A DNA stretch of 38,576 bases, taken from positions 1 to 38,576 of the forward strand of contig CAIOYQ010000027.1 in the NCBI GenBank assembly GCA_903862505.1, given 5' to 3'. Shown here in pieces: positions 1-15,206 of this stretch. Position 1 is the stretch's first letter, and each line of letters starts with the position of its first letter. A model generated the notes under the pieces. The model saw nothing but the letters and a program-made list of their open reading frames with translations, had not been told where the DNA came from and made no database searches. Position numbers and translations under genes: made by a program. The DNA is from an uncultured Bacteroidota bacterium. Lineage in GTDB: Bacteria; Bacteroidota; Bacteroidia; Chitinophagales; Chitinophagaceae.

Positions 1-363
1 GAGGCACTAGAATTGATTAATCAATATGCTCCCGAGCATTTAATTATGTCCATTGAAAACGCCGAAATTGTAGCGGAGAAAGTAGTGAATGCAGGATCGG
101 TTTTTATAGGTAATTATTCGCCAGAGTCAGTGGGGGATTATGCAAGTGGAACCAATCACACTTTGCCTACCAATGGCTATGCCAATGCATATAGTGGTGT
201 AAGTGTAGATAGTTTTGTGAAAAAAATTACATTTCAGCAATTAACTGAACGTGGGCTGATTAATATTGGCAAAGCGGTTATGGAAATGGCAGGAGCAGAA
301 GGCTTGGATGCGCATGGAAATGCTGTTGCGGTCAGATTAAATGATATAGCATCAAAAATGTAG
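1..363 (+). CDS. hisD: Histidinol dehydrogenase, C-terminal part (truncated by window edge)
   Basis: Frame 1 is open from base 1 ([14 protein letters not shown]...); motifs [28 protein letters not shown] are typical of HisD; followed directly by hisC. Confidence 0.95.
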
Positions 364-366
364 CAT

Positions 367-1434
367 ATGCAATTTGATATAAAAAAAATAGTAAGACCCA
401 ATATTGAAAAATTAAAACCGTACGCTTCTGCAAAGGATGAGTATACTGGGGAAGCGCGTATATTGTTAGATGCCAATGAAAATAGTTTGGGTTCGCCTTT
501 AACAAAATGGTACAATCGTTACCCGGACCCGTATCAAAAAGCAATAAAAGAAAAATTGGCCTTTATAAAAAAAGTTCCTGCAGCTCAAATTTTTTTAGGC
601 AATGGTAGTGATGAAATTATTGACTTATTATTCAGGGCATTTTGTGAACCAGGCAAAGACAATATTATAATTTGTCCACCCACGTATCCAATGTATGAGG
701 TAAGCGCAAACATTAATAATATTGGTATTAAATTGGCACCCTTATTGGCGGACTTTCAATTGAATGTGGCACATATTGAGCAATTAGTGGATGACAATAC
801 TAAAATTATTTGGATCTGCTCTCCCAATAATCCAACTGGGAATTCCTTAGACCGAATTGATATTGAAACGGTATTAAACCACTTTAATGGATTGGTTGTT
901 GTAGACGAAGCCTATATTAACTTTTCGAAGCAAAAATCTTTTGTACAATCCCTGGAGGATTATCCAAATCTAGTGGTTTTACAAACCTTGAGTAAGGCTT
1001 GGGGTTTGGCGGGTTTAAGAGTGGGCATGTGTTTTGCCAATGAAGCCATTGTGGGGTATTTAAATAAAGTAAAAGCGCCCTATAATATTAGTATGGTCGC
1101 ACAGGAATTAGTGTTAAAGGCATTAGAAGAAGTGGGGCAGGTAAATGACATGATTCAACATTTGGTAGCAATGCGTATTGCACTTGCTGAAGTGATTGCC
1201 TCTATGCCACTGGTTGAAAAAGTGTACCCTTCGGATGCTAATTTTTTATTGGTTAAAATTCCAAAGGCCACAGAATTGTATAAGTTCTTATGTTCAAAGG
1301 GCATTATTGTAAGGGACCGTTCAAGTTTAACAAATTGTGAGGATACGGTTCGCTTAACGGTTGGAAATGAACAAGAGAATACCGAACTTGTGGATGCTAT
1401 GGCGGAATGGATTGAAAAAACATTTACAGTATAG
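367..1434 (+). CDS. hisC: Histidinol-phosphate aminotransferase
   Basis: 355 aa; class I/II aminotransferase motifs (CSPNNPTGN, VVVDEAYINF, TLSKAWGLAGLRVG); 3 nt after hisD. Confidence 0.95.
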   Translation: MQFDIKKIVRPNIEKLKPYASAKDEYTGEARILLDANENSLGSPLTKWYNRYPDPYQKAIKEKLAFIKKVPAAQIFLGNGSDEIIDLLFRAFCEPGKDNIIICPPTYPMYEVSANINNIGIKLAPLLADFQLNVAHIEQLVDDNTKIIWICSPNNPTGNSLDRIDIETVLNHFNGLVVVDEAYINFSKQKSFVQSLEDYPNLVVLQTLSKAWGLAGLRVGMCFANEAIVGYLNKVKAPYNISMVAQELVLKALEEVGQVNDMIQHLVAMRIALAEVIASMPLVEKVYPSDANFLLVKIPKATELYKFLCSKGIIVRDRSSLTNCEDTVRLTVGNEQENTELVDAMAEWIEKTFTV

Positions 1435-1519
1435 CGACTTACTTGTATAATTTAAATTAAAAGGAAATAAAAAATTAAAATAAAATAGTTTCACAAAAAA
1501 TAATCCCACAAATAGTATT

Positions 1520-2776
1520 ATGAAAAATGTAAAAATCTTTTTAGCACTTGTATTTGCTGCCATTAACATTGTCTCTAATGCACAAAACAATGCCGGCTTA
1601 AAATTGCCTGCTGGTTTTAAAGCCAGCTTATTTGCAGACACCATTGGTAGTGCAAGACATATTGCCATTACCTCAAATGGTGTTGTATTTGCCAAATTAA
1701 TGTATCCCAATAAAGCAGGGAAAAGTATTATTCGTTTAGAAGATAAAAATAACGATGGCGTTGCAGATAAAATTTCAGGATGGGGAAAATATGGAGGTAC
1801 AGGTATTTTTGTAAAAGGAAAATCCTTGTATGCAACATCCAACACGGGTGTGTTCCTTTATCAATTAAATGACCAGGATGAAGTAGTAGATCCTTTAGGG
1901 CCTAAGACTATTGTAGAAGGGTTAATAGATAGAAATCAGCATGAATCAAAATCCATCACATTGGACGGCCAAGGTAATATTTATGTAAATATTGGTGCCT
2001 ATTCAAATGCATGTCAAGAAAAAGACAGAATGCCAGGTTCAAAAGGGATGATGCCTTGTCCTGTTTTAGATTCTGCAGGTGGAATTTGGAAATTTGATAG
2101 CCAAAAAGAAAACCAAGTATATGGTGATGGAATAAGATATGCTACTGGATTGCGCAATGTAGTAGGGTTAGATTGGAATACGCAAACCAATTCATTGTTT
2201 GTTACACAACACGGACGTGATCAATTAAGTAGTTTCTATCCTAAATTATATACCGCCGATCAAAATGCAGAATTACCTGCTGAAACCATGTATGAAATGA
2301 AACAAGGCGATAATGCAGGATGGCCTTATGTTTATTTTGATCCATATCAAAAGAAAAAAATAGTTTCTCCTGAATATGGTGGTGATGGAATTAAAGAAGG
2401 TGGCGAAAACGCACTTGATCCAATTGCATTTTTTCCAGCGCATATGGCACCTAATGCTTTGTTGTTTTATACAGGAAATCAATTCCCAGAAAAATACAAA
2501 AACGGTGCTTTCATTGCTTTTCATGGTTCATGGAATAGAGCACCCCTTCCACAGGAAGGATATTTTGTTGCCTTTGTACCTTTCAAAAATGGTAAACCCA
2601 ATGGGGAATGGGAAATATTTGCCAATGGATTTTCTGGTTTAACCGGCGATGAGAAAGTAAAAAATCCACGCAATGCAAAAGCAAGACCCTGTGGTTTAGC
2701 ACAAGGTCCTGATGGTTCATTGTATGTAAGTGATGATAATAAAGGAGCTATTTTTAAAATCAGTTATGCTAAATAA
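1520..2776 (+). CDS. Secreted PQQ-dependent sugar dehydrogenase / sorbosone dehydrogenase-like protein
   Basis: 418 aa with N-terminal signal peptide; beta-propeller-like motifs (GLRNVVGLDWN, FVTQHGRDQL, GWPYVYFDPYQ, FIAFHGSWNR, SLYVSDDNKGAIFKI). Confidence 0.8.
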   Translation: MKNVKIFLALVFAAINIVSNAQNNAGLKLPAGFKASLFADTIGSARHIAITSNGVVFAKLMYPNKAGKSIIRLEDKNNDGVADKISGWGKYGGTGIFVKGKSLYATSNTGVFLYQLNDQDEVVDPLGPKTIVEGLIDRNQHESKSITLDGQGNIYVNIGAYSNACQEKDRMPGSKGMMPCPVLDSAGGIWKFDSQKENQVYGDGIRYATGLRNVVGLDWNTQTNSLFVTQHGRDQLSSFYPKLYTADQNAELPAETMYEMKQGDNAGWPYVYFDPYQKKKIVSPEYGGDGIKEGGENALDPIAFFPAHMAPNALLFYTGNQFPEKYKNGAFIAFHGSWNRAPLPQEGYFVAFVPFKNGKPNGEWEIFANGFSGLTGDEKVKNPRNAKARPCGLAQGPDGSLYVSDDNKGAIFKISYAK

Positions 2777-2824
2777 TTGGTTACCATTAATGAGTACAAA
2801 CTATAATTTTTAAATGTGGAATGC

Positions 2825-3223
2825 ATGAGTTATAATAAAGTGTTGATCATAATTATTTTAATGGGAGGGTTCGCTTTTAATGTATCTGCACAGGATATAA
2901 CAAAGGGAAAAAAAATATATGAAACAAGATGCTTAGTATGTCACCAAGCTGACGGAGGGGGTGTGCCTAATATGAATGCGCCATTGGATGGGGCAAGCAA
3001 TGTAGTTGGAACTGACATTGCAAGATTGGTGCGCATTATTAAAAAAGGGTATAGTGAGCGAGTTGCTTTAGATGGTTTTTATTATAGTAATGCAATGACG
3101 GCCAATCCAGATTTAAAAGATGCGGATATCGCTAATTTATTAAGTTATATAAGAACAAGCTGGAGTAATAAAGCATCTACCATAACGGCTGCGCAGGTAA
3201 AGGCTGCGGGAAGTAAAAAATAG
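2825..3223 (+). CDS. Exported c-type cytochrome
   Basis: ORF 2816-3223 begins at GTG; ATG at 2825 is the more likely start. Signal peptide and CLVCH haem motif (CxxCH), GKKIYETRCLVCHQADGGGVPN. Confidence 0.85.
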   Translation: MSYNKVLIIIILMGGFAFNVSAQDITKGKKIYETRCLVCHQADGGGVPNMNAPLDGASNVVGTDIARLVRIIKKGYSERVALDGFYYSNAMTANPDLKDADIANLLSYIRTSWSNKASTITAAQVKAAGSKK

Positions 3224-3272
3224 TAACCGATAAGCTTGTAAAAGACAAATAGAAAGAATTTAAAACAAAAAG

Positions 3273-4403
3273 ATGAGACCGATTTTATTTATAGACAGAG
3301 ATGGCGTTATTTTAGAAGAACCGAAATCAGACTTTCAAATTGATTCCATTTCAAAAACAAGTTTTATTCCAGGAGCCATTACTTATTTAAGTAAGATCGC
3401 CTCAACATTTGGGTTTCATAAAGTAATGGTTACCAATCAGGACGGCTTGGGAACGGCAACTTACCCCACTGAAAACTTTGAGCCTTACCAGGCCTTGATG
3501 TTGCGCACATTGGCAGGTGAAGGCTTTGTTTTTGACGAAATTTTTATTGATAAAACTTTTGTCGCAGACAATCAACCAACCCGTAAGCCAGGCACTGCAT
3601 TGGTTGCTCATTTATTAAAAGATCCAAAATTTGATATCGCAAACTCATTTGTCATTGGAGATAGGTGGAGTGATATTGCTTTGGCAAAAAATATAGGATG
3701 TAAAGCCATCTACCTTAAATCGATCTTACATAATTTAACAGTGGAGCAGGAATTGGAATTAAGATCTTTCATAGCTTTTGAAGCCAATACTTGGTCTGAG
3801 ATTTTTAGTTTCTTGAAATTAGGATTAAGAAAGCTTACGCATGTGCGTAACACAAAAGAAACTAAAATAAGTGTGGAATTAAATTTAGATGGGAAGGGAG
3901 AAGCTAAAATTGAAACAGGTTTAGGTTTCTTTGATCATATGTTAGAGCAAATTGCGAGACATGGAGCGTTGGATTTAAATATTAAATGTGAAGGAGACTT
4001 ACATATTGATGAACACCATACGATAGAGGATGTAGGTATTGCCTTAGGGGAAGCTTTTGCCATAGGCTTATCAGATAAAAGAGGAATGGAGCGTTACGGA
4101 TATGCCTTACCAATGGACGAGGCGGAAGCCAAAGTATTAATTGATTTTGGGGGTAGAAACTGGATTGTTTGGGAGGCGGAATTTAAACGAGAAAAAATTG
4201 GAGAAATGCCAACAGAAATGTTCTTCCACTTTTTCAAATCTTTTAGTGATGCTGCTAAGGCCAATGTAAATATTAGTTGTAAGGGGGATAATGAGCACCA
4301 TAAGATAGAAGCCATTTTCAAAGCTTTCGCCAAGTCTATTAAAATGGCAGTGAAACGCAATCCAGAAAGCGACGCATTGCCTAGTACCAAGGGTGTTTTA
4401 TAG
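3273..4403 (+). CDS. hisB: Bifunctional histidinol-phosphatase / imidazoleglycerol-phosphate dehydratase
   Basis: HAD phosphatase N-terminus (FIDRDGVILEEP) fused to IGPD domain (GLGFFDHMLEQIARHG, DEHHTIEDVGIALGEA). Confidence 0.95.
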   Translation: MRPILFIDRDGVILEEPKSDFQIDSISKTSFIPGAITYLSKIASTFGFHKVMVTNQDGLGTATYPTENFEPYQALMLRTLAGEGFVFDEIFIDKTFVADNQPTRKPGTALVAHLLKDPKFDIANSFVIGDRWSDIALAKNIGCKAIYLKSILHNLTVEQELELRSFIAFEANTWSEIFSFLKLGLRKLTHVRNTKETKISVELNLDGKGEAKIETGLGFFDHMLEQIARHGALDLNIKCEGDLHIDEHHTIEDVGIALGEAFAIGLSDKRGMERYGYALPMDEAEAKVLIDFGGRNWIVWEAEFKREKIGEMPTEMFFHFFKSFSDAAKANVNISCKGDNEHHKIEAIFKAFAKSIKMAVKRNPESDALPSTKGVL

Positions 4404-4458
4404 GATACTAACGGCGGATAGTGGCCCTGGGATTGAATTTGATTTGCTAGGATATTTT

Positions 4459-4490
4459 TTTGGCGCGAACTGCGCAAAGCCTTAATTTTG
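4459..4490 (+). promoter_or_regulatory. Bacteroidota-type promoter for the trp leader/operon
   Basis: TTTG (4459-4462), 20-nt spacer, TAATTTTG (4483-4490), matching the -33 TTTG / -7 TAnnTTTG consensus. Confidence 0.75.
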
Positions 4491-4515
4491 TATCTCTAAA
4501 GAAAAAGGAATTAAA

Positions 4516-4572
4516 ATGATTAAAATAAACAATATGTGGTGGTGGCATACAAACTCCGTTGGGGTATTGTAG
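4516..4572 (+). CDS. trpL: trp operon leader peptide MIKINNMWWWHTNSVGVL (internal ATG at 4534)
   Basis: Purine-rich AAAGAAAAAGGA upstream of ATG 4516; three consecutive TGG codons at 4537-4545; TAG at 4570-4572; followed by terminator and trpE. Confidence 0.85.
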   Translation: MIKINNMWWWHTNSVGVL

Positions 4573-4612
4573 TGACATTGCTATTATTGTCAAAATATAC
4601 ATAAACCCCGAC
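4558..4612 (+). promoter_or_regulatory. Putative antiterminator pairing of the trp attenuator
   Basis: GTTGGGGT (4558-4565) can pair with ACCCCGAC (4605-4612), 8 bp with one G-U; mutually exclusive with the terminator; 5-bp hairpin TGACA...TGTCA (4573-4592) lies inside the loop. Confidence 0.7.
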
Positions 4613-4638
4613 ATTGGATGTCGGGGTTTATTTTTTTT
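4602..4638 (+). terminator. Intrinsic terminator of the trp attenuator
   Basis: Perfect 12-bp stem TAAACCCCGACA / TGTCGGGGTTTA, loop TTGGA, followed by T8 (4631-4638); 42 nt before the trpE ATG. Confidence 0.9.
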
Positions 4639-4680
4639 AGAGGTAGCCAAAATATAAACGAAAAGAATTTAGAATAGGAT

Positions 4681-6093
4681 ATGCAAAAGAAGCAAATAAC
4701 AACTACTGTCACTAAGATGTTGGCAGATACATTTACACCAGTAGGCATTTATCTACGATTAAGAGATAGATTTCGAGACACGATATTATTAGAAAGCACC
4801 GATTCGCATGCTTCTGAAAATAGTTACTCTTTTATTGGTGTGAATGCGATTGGCGGTATAGAAATTTCTTCCTTAAATGAAATTGAATTTAAATATCCCA
4901 ATCAAGATCCTGAAAAAGAAACCATTCAAAATGTACATGCTGCCCCGGATAGAATTTGGGCGTATATGCTGCAGTACGAAATGAAAGGTCAGGAAGTGAA
5001 AGAAGCGGCATTTGCACAAGGTCTTTATGGGTACACGGCCTATGATTCGATTCCATTTTTTGATACCATAAAATTTAAAGAAGGCGCTCCTGCTGTCCCT
5101 TTAATGCGTTACCGTTTGTATCAGTATGTAATTGCATTTAATCACTTTAAAGATGAAATATTTATTTGTGAAAATAAATTAAATGGTATTGAATCGGAAT
5201 ATGAAGCATTACTTTCTAATATTAAGAGTAAGGATGTGCCTCAGTATCCGTTTAGCATGCAAGGAATAGAGTCTTCTAATTTTACCGACGAAGCCTATCG
5301 GGAAGCGGTAAAAAAAGGGATACAGCATTGCATGCGTGGGGATGTATTTCAAATTGTTTTAAGCAGACGCTTCCAACAGTCCTTTCAAGGAGATGAGTTT
5401 AATGTATATCGTACTTTAAGAAATATTAATCCCTCGCCTTATTTATTTTTCTTTGATTATGGAGATTATAAATTAATGGGCTCTTCACCAGAAGCACAAA
5501 TTATTATCAATCATGGAAAAGCAGTGGTGCATCCCATTGCAGGCACTTTTAAAAGAACAGGGGATGCGGTGCTAGATGCGACCATGACGCAGCAATTATT
5601 AGAGGATCCTAAGGAAAATGCGGAGCATGTAATGCTGGTAGATTTAGCGCGCAACGATTTAAGTAGAGTGTGTACCGATGTGCGTGTTAAACAATATAGA
5701 CAGGTACATTATTATAGTCATGTTATTCATTTAGTAAGTGAAGTGGAGGGAAAAGTAACCGAGGGGTCAAATCCTTTTCACTTAATTGCTAAAACTTTTC
5801 CTGCCGGCACTTTAAGTGGGGCACCTAAGTTTAAAGCCATGCAATTAATAGATGCCATTGAGCCTACAAAACGTTCTTATTATGGAGGTTGTATTGGTTT
5901 TGTGGGCTTTAATGGTACTTGTAATCAAGCCATTATGATACGTACTTTCTTGAGTCAACAAAATACCCTTACTTATCAAGCAGGTGCGGGTGTGGTTGCG
6001 GCAAGTGTTCCAAAAAATGAATTACAGGAAGTGAATAATAAATTAAATGCCTTAAAAATGGCAATGGTGTTGGCTGAAAAAATTCACGATTAA
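4681..6093 (+). CDS. trpE: Anthranilate synthase component I
   Basis: 470 aa chorismate-binding enzyme; motifs FQIVLSRRFQ, PSPYLFFFDYGDYKLMGSSPE, PIAGTFKRTGD, HVMLVDLARNDLSRV, FPAGTLSGAPK. Confidence 0.95.
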   Translation: MQKKQITTTVTKMLADTFTPVGIYLRLRDRFRDTILLESTDSHASENSYSFIGVNAIGGIEISSLNEIEFKYPNQDPEKETIQNVHAAPDRIWAYMLQYEMKGQEVKEAAFAQGLYGYTAYDSIPFFDTIKFKEGAPAVPLMRYRLYQYVIAFNHFKDEIFICENKLNGIESEYEALLSNIKSKDVPQYPFSMQGIESSNFTDEAYREAVKKGIQHCMRGDVFQIVLSRRFQQSFQGDEFNVYRTLRNINPSPYLFFFDYGDYKLMGSSPEAQIIINHGKAVVHPIAGTFKRTGDAVLDATMTQQLLEDPKENAEHVMLVDLARNDLSRVCTDVRVKQYRQVHYYSHVIHLVSEVEGKVTEGSNPFHLIAKTFPAGTLSGAPKFKAMQLIDAIEPTKRSYYGGCIGFVGFNGTCNQAIMIRTFLSQQNTLTYQAGAGVVAASVPKNELQEVNNKLNALKMAMVLAEKIHD

Positions 6094-6107
6094 TAAAAAG
6101 AAACCAC

Positions 6108-6677
6108 ATGAAAATTTTAGTTTTTGATAATTACGACTCTTTCACTTACAACTTAGTACAGTTGATTAGAGAAATTGCAGTTGATGCAAAAGTGGAAGTC
6201 TTTCGCAATGATGAAATTACATTAGAGGCTGTGAAAGCCTATGATAAAATTTTATTATCACCAGGTCCGGGTATTCCATCGGAGTCGGGTTTGTTATTGC
6301 CCTTAATAAAAGAGTATGCGGCAAGTAAATCTATTTTTGGGGTTTGCTTAGGACAGCAAGCCATAGCGGAATCCTTTGGAGGCAGCTTAAGTAATTTAAG
6401 TAAAGTGTATCATGGCATTGCAACACCAATACATTTAACGAATTCTAGTTCCTTGTTTGAAGGGTTGCCTAATACTTTTAATGTGGGTCGTTATCATAGC
6501 TGGATAGTGAATGAAAATGACTTGCCTTCAGATTTAATTATTACCTCTAAGGATGAGGAGGGGCATATTATGTCTCTAGAGCACAAAACATATGATGTAA
6601 AAGGAGTACAATATCATCCGGAGAGTGTTTTAACACCAGAGGGTGCAAAAATAATCGCAAACTGGTTGAAAAAGTAA
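6108..6677 (+). CDS. trpG: Anthranilate synthase component II (glutamine amidotransferase)
   Basis: VFDNYDSFTYNLVQ, SPGPGIP, FGVCLGQQAIAESFGG, QYHPES. Confidence 0.95.
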   Translation: MKILVFDNYDSFTYNLVQLIREIAVDAKVEVFRNDEITLEAVKAYDKILLSPGPGIPSESGLLLPLIKEYAASKSIFGVCLGQQAIAESFGGSLSNLSKVYHGIATPIHLTNSSSLFEGLPNTFNVGRYHSWIVNENDLPSDLIITSKDEEGHIMSLEHKTYDVKGVQYHPESVLTPEGAKIIANWLKK

Positions 6678-6692
6678 AAATGAATTAGCAAG

Positions 6693-7685
6693 ATGAAAAA
6701 ATTATTACAATATTTATTTGAACACAAAACCTTAAGCAGAGAAAAGGCGAAGGAAGTATTGATTCAAATTTCACAAGGCCAATACAATGAACATGAAGTC
6801 ACTTCATTTGTAACCGTATATTTAATGCGCAGTATAACCATTGAGGAACTCATGGGATTTAGAGACGCTTTGTTATCACTAGCCGTGAAAGTGGATGTAG
6901 GCGTAGACAACGCTATTGATATTGTTGGAACAGGAGGAGATGGCAAAGACACTTTTAATATTTCAACATTGGCTTGTTTTATTGTAGCAGGTGCAGGACA
7001 GCCGGTTGTAAAACATGGTAACTATGGCGCTTCTAGTGTAAGTGGCGCTTCCAATGTAATGGAACAGTTGGGCTACACTTTTAAAAATGACCAAGCTCAA
7101 TTAGCTAAAGAGGTAAAGGAGGCGGGCATTTGTTTTTTACATGCACCTTTGTTTCACCCTGCCTTAAAAATAGTAGGTCCTATAAGACGAAATATAGGGG
7201 TACGCACTTTTTTTAATATGCTAGGTCCTATTGTAAATCCTGCGCAACCTAAGTATCAGTTAATTGGCGTTTATAATTTAGAGATGACCCGTATTTATAA
7301 TTATGTTTTACAATCCTTAGGCAAAGAATTTACTTTAATTAATAGTTTGGATGGGTATGATGAAATTTCTTTAACCGCCGATACGAAAATCGTAACCAAT
7401 AAAGGGGAGTTTACTATGTCTCCCTATGCATTAGGTAAAAAAAGGGTAATGCCTACTGATTTATCTGGGGGTACCACTGTTGAAGCAGCGGCGAAAATCT
7501 TTAAAAATATTATTCAAGGAAATGGAACTTGGTCACAGAACGCAGTGGTTTTGGCCAATGCTGCAATGGCATTAAACCTTACAGGTAAGTATGAAAATTA
7601 CGAGCAAGCCTATCAGGCTGCTGTAAAAAGTTTAGAGTCGGGTGCTGCCAACAACTGTTTACAAAAATTAATGAGTCTTCAATAA
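6693..7685 (+). CDS. trpD: Anthranilate phosphoribosyltransferase
   Basis: DIVGTGGDGKDTFNIST, KHGNYGASSVSGASNVMEQLG. Confidence 0.95.
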   Translation: MKKLLQYLFEHKTLSREKAKEVLIQISQGQYNEHEVTSFVTVYLMRSITIEELMGFRDALLSLAVKVDVGVDNAIDIVGTGGDGKDTFNISTLACFIVAGAGQPVVKHGNYGASSVSGASNVMEQLGYTFKNDQAQLAKEVKEAGICFLHAPLFHPALKIVGPIRRNIGVRTFFNMLGPIVNPAQPKYQLIGVYNLEMTRIYNYVLQSLGKEFTLINSLDGYDEISLTADTKIVTNKGEFTMSPYALGKKRVMPTDLSGGTTVEAAAKIFKNIIQGNGTWSQNAVVLANAAMALNLTGKYENYEQAYQAAVKSLESGAANNCLQKLMSLQ

Positions 7686-8473
7686 TGCGTACCAATATAT
7701 TAGCCACCATCGTTGCCAGTAAGTTTGGCGAAGTAGCCGAACGGAAAAAGCAAATAAGCATTGCTCAGTTAGAGGCGATGCCTTTATTTGCAAAAAAATG
7801 CCTTTCCTTAAAAGCTAATTTATTAGATAGTTCAAAAACAGGGATTATCGCGGAGTTTAAAAGACAATCCCCTTCTAAAGGAATGATCAATGCTTTAGCG
7901 GATGTGAGTGAGGTAACCAAAGCATATTCGGATTTTGGAGCAGCAGGGGTGTCGGTTTTAACGGATGGACTTTATTTTGGAGGAAGTCTTGCAGATTTAA
8001 GTATTGCAATACAAAATCCCATTCCTGTGTTGCGTAAGGAATTTATCATAGACGAATTTCAATTAATTGAAGCCAAAGCTTACGGCGCAGCAGTGATTTT
8101 ACTAATTGCATCTTGTTTGACTCCCGCTGAAACTATAAAATTAGCATCGACTGCAAAAAAGTTAGGCTTAGAAGTATTGTTGGAATTGCACGATGAGGCG
8201 GAACTTGAAAATATATGCGAGGAGGTGGATTTTGTGGGTATTAACAATAGAAGCTTAAAATCCTTCGAAGTAAATATTGAGCACTCTTTAAAATTGAAGA
8301 ACTTATTGCCGAAAGAAAAATTAAGTATTGCCGAAAGTGGTATTTATGATGTAGCGACTTTTCAATTATTAAAAAAAGAAGGATTTGATGGGTTTTTGAT
8401 GGGGGAGTATTTTATGAAACAAGAAAATCCCGCTAAAGCCTTTGAGGCATTTAGTAAACAAATCAACTTATAA
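7685..8473 (+). CDS. trpC: Indole-3-glycerol phosphate synthase
   Basis: AEFKRQSPSKG, PVLRKEFIIDEFQ, VGINNRSLKSFEV, AESGI; start overlaps trpD stop (TAATG). Confidence 0.95.
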   Translation: MRTNILATIVASKFGEVAERKKQISIAQLEAMPLFAKKCLSLKANLLDSSKTGIIAEFKRQSPSKGMINALADVSEVTKAYSDFGAAGVSVLTDGLYFGGSLADLSIAIQNPIPVLRKEFIIDEFQLIEAKAYGAAVILLIASCLTPAETIKLASTAKKLGLEVLLELHDEAELENICEEVDFVGINNRSLKSFEVNIEHSLKLKNLLPKEKLSIAESGIYDVATFQLLKKEGFDGFLMGEYFMKQENPAKAFEAFSKQINL

Positions 8474-8504
8474 AATTGTTATATAAAATATATAGAATCA
8501 TAAA

Positions 8505-9194
8505 ATGAGGATGTTGGATAAGATACAAATAAAAGTATGTGGTATAACAGATATCAATCAAGCACTTGCTTTGGAAGCATTGGGTGTGGACTATATTGGG
8601 TTTATCTTTTATGCTCCATCCAAAAGAAATGTATTAAATAGCTTACAATTAACAGCACTAAAAAAATTCACACCTGCTCATGCTAAAAAAGTGGGGGTAT
8701 TTGTGAATGAATCCATCGAAAGCATAGTCAATACAGTGGTGGCGGCTGGATTAGATATGGTGCAATTGCATGGTGACGAGGACGCGCTTTATTTTACGCT
8801 ATTAAAAAGTAAGTTCAATGAATTAGTTCAAGAGAAAACAACTATTAACAATAAAAATATTGAAGTGATTAAGGTTTTTAGAGTAGGAGACAGGATGCCC
8901 AATTTAACTCCCTTTGAAAATATTGCAGACTATTATTTGTTTGATACAGATAGTAAAATGTATGGCGGAACCGGTGCGCATTTTAATTGGGAATTACTAA
9001 AAGGGAATACCATTGGGAAACCTTATTTTTTAAGTGGCGGCATTGGACCCAATGACATGGGTGGAATAGAAGTAATGAAACAAACCAAAGCGGGTAAGGA
9101 CTTGTTGGCTTTGGATATCAATAGTCAGTTTGAAACTGCACCTGGTATTAAAAATATAGAAAAAATAAAATCCTTTATAGATGCACTCATTTAA
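8505..9194 (+). CDS. trpF: Phosphoribosylanthranilate isomerase
   Basis: KVCGITD, DYIGFIFYAPSKR, VQLHGDED, FLSGGIGPND, LDINSQFE..PGIK. Confidence 0.93.
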   Translation: MRMLDKIQIKVCGITDINQALALEALGVDYIGFIFYAPSKRNVLNSLQLTALKKFTPAHAKKVGVFVNESIESIVNTVVAAGLDMVQLHGDEDALYFTLLKSKFNELVQEKTTINNKNIEVIKVFRVGDRMPNLTPFENIADYYLFDTDSKMYGGTGAHFNWELLKGNTIGKPYFLSGGIGPNDMGGIEVMKQTKAGKDLLALDINSQFETAPGIKNIEKIKSFIDALI

Positions 9195-10392
9195 TCAAAA
9201 CATTAATTATCAAGACCCTAGTGCCGAAGGTTACTATGGTGATTTTGGCGGCGCTTACATTCCTGAAATGTTGTATAGCAATGTGGAGACTTTGAAAACC
9301 CAATATATACAAATCATGCAGGATCCTGAATTTCAAAGGGAGTTCCATGCATTATTAAAAGACTATGTGGGGAGACCTACCCCCTTATTTTATGCCCAAA
9401 GATTAAGCAAGGAAATTGGCACACAAATTTATTTGAAGCGCGAAGATCTTTGTCATACCGGTGCGCACAAAATTAACAATACCATTGGGCAAATTATATT
9501 AGCACAACGTTTAGGGAAGAAAAAAATTATCGCAGAAACGGGTGCAGGTCAACATGGTGTGGCAACTGCAACGGTATGTGCATTAAAAGGAATGGAATGT
9601 GTGGTATATATGGGAGAGAAAGACATTGAAAGGCAAGCACCCAATGTGGCGAGAATGAAAATGTTGGGGGCAACAGTCATTCCTGCAAAAAGCGGCAGTA
9701 AAACATTAAAGGATGCTACGAATGAAGCCATTCGTGCTTGGATTAACGAGCCCAACGATACGCATTATATTATTGGTAGCGTAGTAGGTCCTCATCCATA
9801 TCCTGATATGGTGGCACGTTTTCAAAGTGTGATCAGTGATGAAATACGCAAACAACTAAAAATTAAAACAGGTTCTGAATTACCAACGCATGTAGTGGCT
9901 TGTGTAGGTGGGGGTTCAAATGCAGCAGGTGCGTTTTATCATTTCTTAAACGAACCAACCGTTGAACTGGTTGCCGTAGAAGCAGCTGGCCATGGCGTAT
10001 ATTCTGGAATGAGTGCAGCAACCACCCAATTAGGGAAGCCAGGAATTTTACATGGTAGTAAAAGTATATTAATGCAAACGGAGGACGGCCAAGTGGTGGA
10101 GCCTCATAGTATTAGTGCTGGTTTGGATTATCCAGGTATTGGGCCCTTGCATGCTTTTTTATATGAAAGTAAGCGCGGCACTTTTACCAGTGCAACCGAT
10201 GAAGAAGCACTTGAATGGGCATTTCATTTATCAGAAATTGAAGGCATTATTCCAGCATTGGAAACGGCACACGCTTTTGCTATTCTTCCTAAAATGAATT
10301 TTAAACCGACCGATGTGGTGGTGGTTTGTTTAAGTGGAAGAGGCGATAAGGATTTAGCAACGTATATGCAAGTCATGGATTCAAAAATATAA
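9181..10392 (+). CDS. trpB: Tryptophan synthase beta chain
   Basis: GDFGGAYIPEML, LKREDLCHTGAHKINN, AETGAGQHGVATAT, CVGGGSNAAG; 14-nt overlap with trpF. Confidence 0.97.
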   Translation: MHSFNQNINYQDPSAEGYYGDFGGAYIPEMLYSNVETLKTQYIQIMQDPEFQREFHALLKDYVGRPTPLFYAQRLSKEIGTQIYLKREDLCHTGAHKINNTIGQIILAQRLGKKKIIAETGAGQHGVATATVCALKGMECVVYMGEKDIERQAPNVARMKMLGATVIPAKSGSKTLKDATNEAIRAWINEPNDTHYIIGSVVGPHPYPDMVARFQSVISDEIRKQLKIKTGSELPTHVVACVGGGSNAAGAFYHFLNEPTVELVAVEAAGHGVYSGMSAATTQLGKPGILHGSKSILMQTEDGQVVEPHSISAGLDYPGIGPLHAFLYESKRGTFTSATDEEALEWAFHLSEIEGIIPALETAHAFAILPKMNFKPTDVVVVCLSGRGDKDLATYMQVMDSKI

Positions 10393-10470
10393 ACAATTAA
10401 TAATTTACGCGTAAATAAGCAACAATAAAATATTTACGCGCAATCATAGAGATCATTTAAAGTATTATTT

Positions 10471-11241
10471 ATGTCAAGGTTATCGGAATTATTTCAAAAG
10501 CAAAATGAACGTGTATTAAATGTGTATTGCACTGCTGGTTTCCCGCAACTCGATAGCACGATACAAGTAATGGAAAGCTTACAAGAAAATGGAGCCAATA
10601 TTATTGAATTGGGCATGCCTTATAGTGATCCTTTAGCAGACGGTGAAGTAATTCAGTCCAGTGGGAATGTGGCAATTGCAAATGGAATGACTATTGACAC
10701 CTTATTTGAGCAATTGACTTTAATGCGCAATTCCATTCATATTCCAGTGGTATTAATGGGCTATATGAACCCCATTTTGCAATATGGCTTTGAGGCTTTT
10801 TGTAAGAAAGCAAAAGCGGTTGGCGTGGATGGATTAATCCTTCCAGATTTGCCTTTATATGAATTTGAACATATTTATGGTAAAACAGTGCATGAAAATG
10901 ACTTGGACTTTGTGTTTTTAGTAACGCCTGAAACCCCGGAAGAAAGATTAAGAAAATTAGACAGCTTAAGTACCGGTTTCTTATATGCAGTAAGTTCTTC
11001 TGCCACCACAGGGCAAGATAAAGATTTTTCAAAAGTGGCTTTGTATTTGCAAAAACTACAAGCCATGCAATTTAAAAATCCAGTCTTAGTAGGCTTTGGA
11101 ATTAAAGACAAGGAAACCTTTGACGCCGTTTGTGCTTTTTCCAATGGGGCCATTATAGGTTCGGCTTATATTCAAGCTTTGTCAAAAGGAAATTCGGTTC
11201 AGGAGACAACGGCTCAATTTTTAAAAGCAGTATTAAAGTAG
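10471..11241 (+). CDS. trpA: Tryptophan synthase alpha chain
   Basis: IELGMPYSDPLADGEVIQ, GYMNPILQYG, GLILPDLP, GFGIKDKE. Confidence 0.96.
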   Translation: MSRLSELFQKQNERVLNVYCTAGFPQLDSTIQVMESLQENGANIIELGMPYSDPLADGEVIQSSGNVAIANGMTIDTLFEQLTLMRNSIHIPVVLMGYMNPILQYGFEAFCKKAKAVGVDGLILPDLPLYEFEHIYGKTVHENDLDFVFLVTPETPEERLRKLDSLSTGFLYAVSSSATTGQDKDFSKVALYLQKLQAMQFKNPVLVGFGIKDKETFDAVCAFSNGAIIGSAYIQALSKGNSVQETTAQFLKAVLK

Positions 11242-11253
11242 TTAATAAAAATA

Positions 11254-11847
11254 ATGAACACAGTAATTATACAATACAATGCAGGGAATATTCAATCGGT
11301 GCTTTATGCTTTGGAGCGATTGGGTGTTCAGGCTTTGGTGACCGATGATGTGGAATTAATTCAAAAAGCAGATAAAGTGATATTCCCGGGTGTAGGGGAA
11401 GCAAGTACGGCCATGCATTATTTAAAAGAAAGAGGGTTGGATAAAGTAATCCAACATTTAAAACAACCCGTTTTAGGGATCTGCTTAGGCATGCAATTGA
11501 TGTGTACTTATTCCGAAGAAAATGATACTACTTGTTTAGGTGTTTTTGAAGAACAAGTAAAGCTATTTAAGCCATCGGATGCTAGTATTAAAGTGCCTCA
11601 AATAGGATGGAATAATATTGGCCAACTAAAAACGGACTTATTTAAAGGGGTTGCAGAAAATAGTTTTACTTATTTTGTACATGGCTATTACGCAGCCTTA
11701 GGAGCGCATACCATTGCCACTACCCAATATATTCAACCTTATAGCAGTGCTTTACACAAGGATAATTTTTATGGGGTGCAGTTTCATCCAGAAAAATCAG
11801 CCAAAGTAGGAGAACAGATTATCCAAAATTTTTTAAACATTTCTTAA
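11254..11847 (+). CDS. hisH: Imidazole glycerol phosphate synthase subunit HisH
   Basis: IIQYNAGNIQSV, FPGVGEASTAM, LGICLGMQLM, GVQFHPEKSA; only 12 nt after trpA. Confidence 0.95.
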   Translation: MNTVIIQYNAGNIQSVLYALERLGVQALVTDDVELIQKADKVIFPGVGEASTAMHYLKERGLDKVIQHLKQPVLGICLGMQLMCTYSEENDTTCLGVFEEQVKLFKPSDASIKVPQIGWNNIGQLKTDLFKGVAENSFTYFVHGYYAALGAHTIATTQYIQPYSSALHKDNFYGVQFHPEKSAKVGEQIIQNFLNIS

Positions 11848-11884
11848 ATCGACGATTCGATATAAAATAAATAGTCAAACACAA

Positions 11885-12598
11885 ATGCAAATAATTCCAG
11901 CCATAGATTTAATAGAAGGTAAATGTGTTCGTTTAACCGAAGGCGACTACGCGCAAAAGAAAATTTACAATGAGGATCCATTGGAAGTAGCCAAGGCATT
12001 TGAGGGTATTGGTTTAATGCGTTTACACTTGGTGGATTTAGATGGCGCCAAAGCAGGGGAAGTTGTCAATTGGAAAGTGTTGGAGAAAATTGCCAATCAA
12101 ACTAAATTAAAAATAGATTTTGGAGGAGGCATCAAAAAAGAAGCCACTTTAAAATCGGTATTGGAGGCAGGTGCCAATTATGCGACCATTGGCAGTTTAG
12201 CGGTTAAAAGCAGAAATATATTTGAAGAGTGGATTGAGCGTTTTGGTGCAGAAGTATTTATGTTGGGAGCCGATGTGTTTGAAGAAAAAATAGCCGTTGG
12301 AGGCTGGTTAGAAAAAACAGATATTGATGTATATACTTTTATGCAATCCTATATGGATAAAGGGGTTACACAAATATTTTGTACCGATATTCAAAAGGAT
12401 GGAAAATTACAGGGTCCGTCGATTGAATTGTATAAGAAAATCATTTCAAAATTACCTACCTTAAAATTAATCGCAAGTGGTGGGGTTAGTAATTTGCAGG
12501 ATTTAAAAGATTTACGTGAAATTGGATGTTCGGCTGCCATTGTTGGGAAGGCCATTTATGAAAACAGAATCTCTTTAGAAGCACTTTCAAATTTTTAA
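11885..12598 (+). CDS. hisA: Phosphoribosylformimino-5-aminoimidazole carboxamide ribotide isomerase
   Basis: IIPAIDLIEGKCVRLTEGDY, HLVDLDGAKAG, IDFGGGIK, IASGGVS. Confidence 0.95.
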   Translation: MQIIPAIDLIEGKCVRLTEGDYAQKKIYNEDPLEVAKAFEGIGLMRLHLVDLDGAKAGEVVNWKVLEKIANQTKLKIDFGGGIKKEATLKSVLEAGANYATIGSLAVKSRNIFEEWIERFGAEVFMLGADVFEEKIAVGGWLEKTDIDVYTFMQSYMDKGVTQIFCTDIQKDGKLQGPSIELYKKIISKLPTLKLIASGGVSNLQDLKDLREIGCSAAIVGKAIYENRISLEALSNF

Positions 12599-12628
12599 GA
12601 AACAGTAAAAAGAAATTAAATACGCACT

Positions 12629-13387
12629 ATGTTAACCAAAAGAATCATCCCCTGCTTAGATATCAAAGACGGACGCACTGTGAAGGGCATCAACTTTGAG
12701 CAGATTCGTGACGCGGGTGATCCAATTGAATTAGGAGCTTTCTATGCTGAACAAGGAGCAGATGAATTGGTATTCTTAGATATTACAGCCACTATTGAAA
12801 AAAGAAAAACCTTAAGTGAATTGGTTAATAAGATTGCCCATAAAATTAATATCCCATTTACGGTAGGGGGTGGAATTAAATCAGAAGAGGATGTAAGTGT
12901 ATTATTACAAAATGGGGCAGATAAAATTGCTATCAATACCGCAGCATTTTTAGATCCAACTACGATTAGTCGGTTTGCTAAAAACTTTGGAAGTCAATGT
13001 GTGGTATTAGCCATTGATGCAAAATGTGAAGCCGATAACAAGTGGTATGTTTATTTAAATGGAGGTAGGACCAAAACGGATAAGTTGGTAACCGACTGGG
13101 CTAAGGAAGCGGTAGATTTAGGTGTTGGGGAAATATTATTGACCTCCATGAACCACGATGGCACAAAGCAAGGCTTTGCTTTAGATATAACAGCACAATT
13201 GGCGGAAACTTTACCAGTTCCCATTATTGCTTCCGGAGGTGGTGGAAATGAGCAGCACTTTTTAGATGTGTTCACCAAAGGGAAAGCGGATGCTGCATTG
13301 GCGGCAAGTATCTTTCATTATAAGGAGCTGGCTATTCCAGATCTTAAACAATTTTTAAATAAGCAAGGAATTGCCATTAGATTGTAA
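12629..13387 (+). CDS. hisF: Imidazole glycerol phosphate synthase subunit HisF
   Basis: [55 protein letters not shown]. Confidence 0.96.
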
Positions 13388-13459
13388 ATAGTACTTGGTT
13401 TATTAAATTGCTTTATAAATAAATAGAAAACGGATCATTAACTTTATATAATTTCACTT

Positions 13460-14062
13460 ATGAATATCAATTTTTCAAAATACGCAGATGGCTTAGTGCC
13501 TGCTATTGTGCAGGACGCAAATACAAAAACTGTTTTAATGATGGGCTTTATGAATCAGGAAGCCGTTGATGCGACAGTGGCGCAACAAAAAGTCACTTTT
13601 TTTAGCAGGTCAAAATCAAGATTATGGACCAAAGGTGAAGAGAGCGGTAATTTCTTAAACTATATTGGTATGGAAGTGGATTGCGACAATGACACCCTAT
13701 TAATTCAAGCAAATCCTGTTGGACCAGTTTGTCACAACGGAACGGGGACTTGTTGGGGTAATGAAAATGAAATTTCCAACACTCAATTTTTAACTACATT
13801 GGAAGCTGTGATTGCTGAAAGAAAAACAGCAGCACCGGAAAGCTCTTATGTGGCGAGTTTATTTGAAAAAGGGATTAATAAAATTGCACAAAAAGTGGGG
13901 GAAGAGGCTGTCGAATTGGTAATAGAAGCAAAAGACAATAATGAAACACTTTTTTTGGATGAGTCGGCCGATTTGTTATTTCATTACTTAATATTACTAC
14001 AGGCAAAAGGGTATGCCTTAAAAGATGTTGTTAATGTTTTAGAAAAGAGGCACAAGTCGTAA
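13460..14062 (+). CDS. hisIE: Bifunctional phosphoribosyl-AMP cyclohydrolase / phosphoribosyl-ATP pyrophosphatase
   Basis: N-terminal HisI (FFSRSKSRLWTKGEESGN, CDNDTLLIQANPVGPVCHNGTGTC) and C-terminal HisE (KVGEEAVELVIEAKD). Confidence 0.95.
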   Translation: MNINFSKYADGLVPAIVQDANTKTVLMMGFMNQEAVDATVAQQKVTFFSRSKSRLWTKGEESGNFLNYIGMEVDCDNDTLLIQANPVGPVCHNGTGTCWGNENEISNTQFLTTLEAVIAERKTAAPESSYVASLFEKGINKIAQKVGEEAVELVIEAKDNNETLFLDESADLLFHYLILLQAKGYALKDVVNVLEKRHKS

Positions 14063-14083
14063 TTTAACTGTTTAAAATAAGCT

Positions 14084-14091
14084 TATATTTG
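14084..14091 (+). promoter_or_regulatory. Promoter -7 box upstream of the thioredoxin-like gene
   Basis: TATATTTG (TAnnTTTG) 33 nt before ATG 14124; no clear -33 TTTG. Confidence 0.4.
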
Positions 14092-14123
14092 GCATGCAAT
14101 AATTGCAAAAGAAAATTAACACT

Positions 14124-15206
14124 ATGAAAAAAATAACGGGGTTGGCATTATTAATGATTTCATTTATTTCATTAAATGCACAAGGGTTAAAAGTGACTGG
14201 AGCACTTAAAAATTTAGCAGATAACACCGAAGTATCTTTATCGGATGGTGTTACAAACCAAGAAGTTGGGAAAGGCATTTCCAAAGATGGGAATTTCATA
14301 ATCACAGGAAGTACAAAATCTGCTACTATATTTTTATTGGGGTTTAAAGGAATGGAACAAAAGCTCCCTTTATTTATTGGTAATGAAAATATAACCATTG
14401 CAGGTGATTTGCAAAATGTGGCTGCATTAAAAATTAGTGGTTCAGTTTCCCATGACGTATATCAAGATTATATGTCTGTACTTCCTCCTCTTATTGAGCC
14501 TTATATTAAATCAATGCAAGCAAATCAGGTGGAAACCAATGCTTCAAAAAAGGATTCATTAACGAAGCTTTCTAATGATTTAAGTACAAATGTTACCAAT
14601 GCTTTTTTGAAATTAACTAGCAAATACAATCAGTCTCCTGTTTCTGCTTTATTCTTATTACAGTTTGCAAATATGTTCCCAGTTATCAAGGATGGTTTAC
14701 CAAGTATTTATGGCTCTTTTACCGGAGATGCCAAAATAGGACCATTTGCTGATATATTAGATAAGACAGTATCATCTGCTGAATTAGGAAAAATAGGCAC
14801 GGTGCTTCCTGAATTTAAACAAAACGATGCTTCAGGCAAATCAGTAAGCTTAAGTTCATTCAGAGGAAAATATGTCCTAATTGATTTTTGGGCAAGCTGG
14901 TGTGGACCTTGTAGAGCGGAAAATCCCGCTGTAGTAAAGGCCTTTAATGCATATAAGGCAAAAGGCTTTACAGTACTAGGCGTGTCTTTAGATCAGGATA
15001 AAGCAAAGTGGTTAGAAGCTATTAAAAAAGACGGACTTACATGGACTCAAGTGAGTGATTTGAAATATTGGAATAATGCAGTTGCCCAACAATTCGGCAT
15101 TCAAAGTATTCCTGCAAATTTCTTAATTGATCCTAAGGGCGTGGTGATTGGTAAGGATTTAAGAGGGGAGGATTTGCTAAAAGTGTTAGCTGCAAATGTA
15201 AAATAG
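14124..15206 (+). CDS. Exported TlpA/thioredoxin-like (AhpC/Redoxin) protein with N-terminal DUF4369-type region
   Basis: ORF 14103 begins with TTG; ATG 14124 is likelier. Signal peptide; WASWCGPCRAENPAV active site. Confidence 0.85.
   Translation: MKKITGLALLMISFISLNAQGLKVTGALKNLADNTEVSLSDGVTNQEVGKGISKDGNFIITGSTKSATIFLLGFKGMEQKLPLFIGNENITIAGDLQNVAALKISGSVSHDVYQDYMSVLPPLIEPYIKSMQANQVETNASKKDSLTKLSNDLSTNVTNAFLKLTSKYNQSPVSALFLLQFANMFPVIKDGLPSIYGSFTGDAKIGPFADILDKTVSSAELGKIGTVLPEFKQNDASGKSVSLSSFRGKYVLIDFWASWCGPCRAENPAVVKAFNAYKAKGFTVLGVSLDQDKAKWLEAIKKDGLTWTQVSDLKYWNNAVAQQFGIQSIPANFLIDPKGVVIGKDLRGEDLLKVLAANVK

Follow-up and report, generated by a model that had tools for sequence, protein, structure and literature searches.

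A trp attenuator within a mixed his-trp operon of Chitinophagaceae, and a histidine codon that may act as its second control codon

The hypothesis

We propose that, wherever a trp attenuator of Bacteroidia also has his genes downstream, it responds to two amino acids, by means of three Trp codons and one His codon placed at the last position from which a stalled ribosome would free the antiterminator, and that departure of the his genes tends to be followed by loss of the His codon. We lean towards this reading, if only slightly. Should it be right, the content of the leader peptide tracks the make-up of the operon.

The example from which we argue lies in the window, by which we mean the whole stretch of 38,576 nucleotides that was analysed. 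Its host is a Sediminibacterium-like member of the Chitinophagaceae from freshwater. The element in front of trpE is almost certainly a classical ribosome-mediated Trp transcription attenuator, where stalling, termination and the response to Trp are deduced from the sequence and its relatives. A Trp attenuator is in itself of a known kind, and the new part is the His codon that is tied to downstream his genes. Whether this codon adds a response to histidine is, in our opinion, an evenly balanced matter, since what speaks for it is a comparison between loci.

The locus

Gene names in the window (Table 1) come from reading of the ORF translations and from conserved order. That order is hisD-hisC-(two other genes)-hisB, leader, trpE-G-D-C-F-B-A, hisH-A-F-I. 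Thus the trp operon is nested inside a his operon, and for this reason the attenuator precedes trpEGDCFBA-hisHAFI. Only 12 nt separate trpA from hisH, and a pattern search found no strong terminator pattern in this gap. The same mixed arrangement has been described, in a paper on the his genes of this superphylum, for two species, of Thermoflavifilum and Filimonas, in which a his operon is interrupted by trp genes and the whole is thought to be one transcription unit (PMC8305728); the account of these clusters, in its relevant part, concerns gene order only and includes no trp leader, attenuator or regulation. The two genes between hisC and hisB (1520-3223) resemble, by eye, a sorbosone dehydrogenase and a c-type cytochrome, and are unrelated to histidine synthesis.

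Table 1. Features of the his-trp locus, in window coordinates
Feature	Position	Strand	Basis
First half of his operon: hisD (partial, contig start), hisC, two unrelated genes, hisB	13..4403	+	ORFs
Putative Bacteroidota-type promoter: TTTG/TTG 4459-4462, TAATTTTG 4483-4490	4459..4490	+	motif search
Leader peptide ORF, MIKINNMWWWHTNSVGVL and stop	4516..4572	+	translation, conserved in relatives
Three TGG (Trp) control codons	4537..4545	+	invariant in 22 genus sequences
CAT (His), proposed second control codon	4546..4548	+	his-linkage association
Region 2, antiterminator 5' arm GTTGGGGT, within leader ORF	4558..4565	+	pairs with 4605-4612, covariation
Antiterminator inner helices: TGTA 4568-4571/TACA 4598-4601, TGACA 4573-4577/TGTCA 4588-4592	4568..4601	+	fold
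Intrinsic terminator, 3:4 helix 4601-4614/4618-4631 and T8	4601..4638	+	pattern, fold, covariation
trpE, trpG, trpD, trpC, trpF, trpB, trpA	4681..11241	+	ORFs, sequence reading, conserved order
Second half of his operon, 3' of attenuator: hisH, hisA, hisF, hisI(E)	11254..14062	+	ORFs

Evidence for the attenuator

The original prediction described a leader ORF at 4516-4572, and upon translation its coordinates and its peptide, MIKINNMWWWHTNSVGVL, proved right to the base, with ATG at 4516 and TAG at 4570-4572. There is a second in-frame ATG at 4534, directly 5' of the three Trp codons; nevertheless, 4516 is the likelier start, because many relatives have no Met at the position of 4534 but keep an ATG near 4516. 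Leader, terminator and spacing recur in 22 sequences of the genus, the copy in the window among them, whose contigs span the whole site and reach far enough upstream, and this recurrence excludes chance. Of a further 54 loci, whose genomes partly overlap the 22, nearly all show these three features as well. A WWW leader stands at trpE in nearly all relatives from the genus and in most of 131 loci sampled across the class; similarly, short WWW leaders lie 5' of trpE in most of the Bacteroidia loci that were read. It had been suggested that the prediction be checked by conservation upstream of trpE in relatives, and the TGG run and terminator are indeed kept there in the genus, and antiterminator and terminator in an alignment of 50 sequences. 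Four loci from one family (L230, L233, L236 and L248) have split leaders, WLWQ instead of WWW, with only trpE-trpG-trpC in the sampled stretch.

The motif TTKG-N17-21-TANNTTTG has its sole + strand match within 4301-14500 at 4459-4490. We call it a promoter on the basis of the Bacteroidota consensus, which we take to be TTG, 19-21 nt, TAnnTTTG. It occurs at most 110 nt 5' of WWW in 50/52 relatives, compared with 40/2160 random stretches of 110 nt.

The terminator, claimed to occupy 4602-4638 and to end in T8, is present: pattern and folding agree on a helix of 14 pairs (4601-4631) with a loop of 3, and the T8 runs from 4631 to 4638. The claimed complementarity between region 2 and the 5' arm of the terminator was likewise found, as 8 pairs, one of them U-G, between GTTGGGGT and ACCCCGAC (4605-4612). 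The region 4495-4640 as a whole folds at -45.1 kcal/mol (z -5.3), and 0 of 200 shuffles are as low. If the 3' arm of the terminator is omitted, the RNA from 4558 folds as the antiterminator (MFE -18.3 kcal/mol, z -2.7), while with that arm included the terminator outcompetes it. An attenuator would be expected to make just such a kinetic choice, which the folding model shows as a switch upon adding the 3' arm. The two structures are mutually exclusive and have arm 3 in common, as the folds indicate, and both helices covary.

The comparative support is as follows. In the 50 aligned sequences, 97.9% of the cells of the 2:3 antiterminator are paired, as are 100% (TGTA/TACA) and 95.6% (TGACA/TGTCA) of those in its inner helices, whereas only 32-53% of cells pair in slid controls for the 2:3 and 3:4 helices. 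Columns 34/83, in the antiterminator, are G-C in 34 sequences, A-U in 15 and G-U in 1, the G-U intermediate being seen at loci L065 and L067; columns 84/96, in the terminator (3:4), are G-C in 34 and A-U in 16. To judge from the alignment, both rival helices are under selection, and arm 3 retains its pairing with either partner at the same bases. The changes follow clades, so that the compensatory changes in 2:3 and 3:4 count as few events, and the one in 2:3, being clade-specific, may be a single event. A 1:2 (pause) hairpin is predicted by folding, and the genus alignment (22 sequences) is consistent with it, with no pair changed on both sides.

Spacing is conserved too. Region 2 starts 12-16 nt past the W run in 49 of the 57 Chitinophagaceae that have a clear terminator and complement, and it ends 0-4 nt 5' of the stop codon in most of the 57. 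A ribosome covers about 12 nt beyond its A-site codon. Given this coverage and this spacing, a ribosome that halts on W or one codon further would free region 2, and one at the stop codon would cover it. This agrees with the geometry originally proposed for stalling on the Trp codons and for the stop codon. Ribosome coverage of up to 12 nt past the stop codon is on record (PMC4833913), and Elf and Ehrenberg (PMC1183508) name two designs for low basal readthrough, in one of which the stop codon is placed deep within region 2 or beyond it.

The attenuator would then work in the following way. Transcription would start near 4496. As long as Trp-tRNA abounds, the ribosome would reach the TAG at 4570 and cover region 2 (4558-4565), upon which arm 3 (4605-4612) would pair with arm 4 and RNA polymerase would stop at about 4638. 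When Trp-tRNA runs short, the ribosome would stall on 4537-4545, leaving region 2 free; 2:3 would form and transcription would continue into trpEGDCFBA-hisHAFI. The His codon (4546-4548) would be the last one at which a stalled ribosome still leaves region 2, and so the antiterminator, free, and a shortage of histidine would also relieve termination through it. Such a His input is suggested because hisHAFI lie in the same unit as the trp genes. The trpL-like character that had been claimed for the element thus fits the WWW leader, the two covarying helices, the geometry, the promoter 5' and trpE next in line.

The histidine codon and downstream his genes

In the genus, the codon after WWW is always His. 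For a wider view, one locus was sampled for most genera of Chitinophagaceae, together with 60 loci from other families of the class. The linkage test covers 114 loci with a readable leader and a known downstream context, linked meaning that his genes lie within 3 kb downstream. The W run has a His right behind it in 47 of the 49 his-linked trp leaders of Bacteroidia, as opposed to 19 of the 65 unlinked ones, and the two linked loci without His at +1 are L175 (WWWQH) and L194 (WWWQ). The TrpE tree has at least 16 changes in linkage and at least 17 in His. A Pagel test on this tree favours dependent over independent evolution with LR 31.85, a value that 0 of 200 null simulations reach (maximum 12.6). 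The association appears within Chitinophagaceae (LR 16.3) as well as outside (LR 13.0). Seven other leader features, set against linkage, give LR 2.7-16.3, below His. The neighbouring residues T(+2) and N(+3) track linkage too, more weakly, so part of the His signal is possibly general leader conservation in linked lineages. An independent-pairs count (3.3 to 0, p 0.25) is underpowered and goes in the same direction as the tree test. To the extent that sequences can tell, the tree test speaks of an association of His with linkage, not of cause.

The most serious alternative is that the attenuator senses Trp only, and that the His codon is kept by pairing in the 1:2 hairpin (CAU with AUG/GUG) or by common descent. 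We regard this as a real possibility, though one on which we would rather not bet. Indeed, the CAT columns (48-50 of alignment A1) pair in the consensus 1:2 hairpin, with C-G in 22/22; CAT is far commoner after the W run than CAC (122 versus 9); His is kept in 19 unlinked loci; and E. coli trpL likewise has one unrelated codon (Arg) after its WW. The proposed dual leader, moreover, carries only one His codon. On the other hand, His survives as CAC in 9 loci, which argues that the amino acid is kept and not only the RNA, and Q, S or L versions occur in unlinked relatives. RNA pairing also predicts no association with his linkage, yet this association stands on the tree. In our opinion, the CAC versions and the linkage association together make it less likely that RNA constraint alone explains the His codon.

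As for the reading that we prefer, in which Trp and His are both sensed, we found no dual Trp/His leader in the open-access literature. A comparison by eye of the genes after trpA with the other residues that follow WWW (F, L, S, P) gave no clear match. A DAHP synthase-like gene lies directly 3' of trpA in several Bacteroidia whose trp operon is unlinked to his (L203, L211, L229, L234, L238).

It could also be argued that the hairpin simply ends the his transcript arriving from upstream, as an ordinary terminator 3' of hisB, and that the leader ORF is incidental. The hairpin folds strongly and lies about 200 nt 3' of hisB, where it would stop readthrough. We consider this very improbable, given that the WWW peptide, the spacing, region 2 and the promoter between hisB and the leader are all conserved, that the 2:3 helix covaries, and that the element is present also where trpE does not follow hisB. 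Least probable of all is a leader that binds a protein or a ligand, in the manner of TRAP or of a riboswitch, in place of ribosome control: other phyla do use TRAP or T-boxes for trp, but no Rfam family reaches its cut-off in the window element, and throughout the class the reading frame that codes for WWW is conserved.

Relation to known leaders

The Bacteroidetes trp leader is represented in Rfam by RF01692 (Bacteroid-trp), which appears in the list of Weinberg et al. 2010 (PMC2864571), hence this kind of attenuator has already been described in Bacteroidota. RF01692 resembles the window element in its UGG run, in a hairpin that includes these codons, in the beginning of a terminator and in its place before trpE. 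Its model, however, scores 27.9 bits on the window against a gathering cut-off of 49. Among 248 genomes of the phylum it matches two families only, and it has no match in any sampled Chitinophagaceae genome. The leaders of matching genomes have N, S or K after WWW (for example L226, L255, L252), and the window element has H. Since WWW leaders are common in Bacteroidia but RF01692 finds none in the Chitinophagaceae sampled, we take the mechanism to be an ordinary one, in a branch that escapes the public model.

The model for the E. coli type, RF00513 (Trp_leader), gives 20.0 bits against a cut-off of 41. Like the window element, E. coli trpL combines tandem Trp codons in a leader peptide with 1:2, 2:3 and 3:4 helices; the window element differs in having region 2 inside the ORF and his genes in the downstream unit. 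The scores of rnk_pseudo (40.2 bits versus 55), PyrR, MicC and others are below their cut-offs and come largely from the terminator hairpin, so we discount these families.

One leader can read several amino acids: thrL reads Thr and Ile, and ilvL reads Ile, Val and Leu. In these two cases the amino acids belong to connected pathways, whereas the pathways of the proposed Trp/His leader are joined by gene order.

Implications

The attenuator extends the known Bacteroidetes class to Chitinophagaceae, where the Rfam model misses it in the sampled genomes. Were the His codon a second sensor, this would be a leader peptide adapting to an operon in which two pathways, both drawing on PRPP, have been merged. 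If true, it also offers a simple test case, in which exchanging codons of a 54-nt ORF should add or remove control by histidine.

Relatives possess a separate his leader as well. In front of hisG there is a leader with a run of His codons, for example MNLNNHIHHHHLLSKG in L032 (L032:3410-3600), and also in L044, L086 and L094; it has, by eye, a terminator-like hairpin behind it, and a Trp codon is absent. The corresponding position falls outside the window, which begins in hisD. Because hisG has this attenuator-like leader of its own, mixed his-trp clusters appear to carry two leaders.
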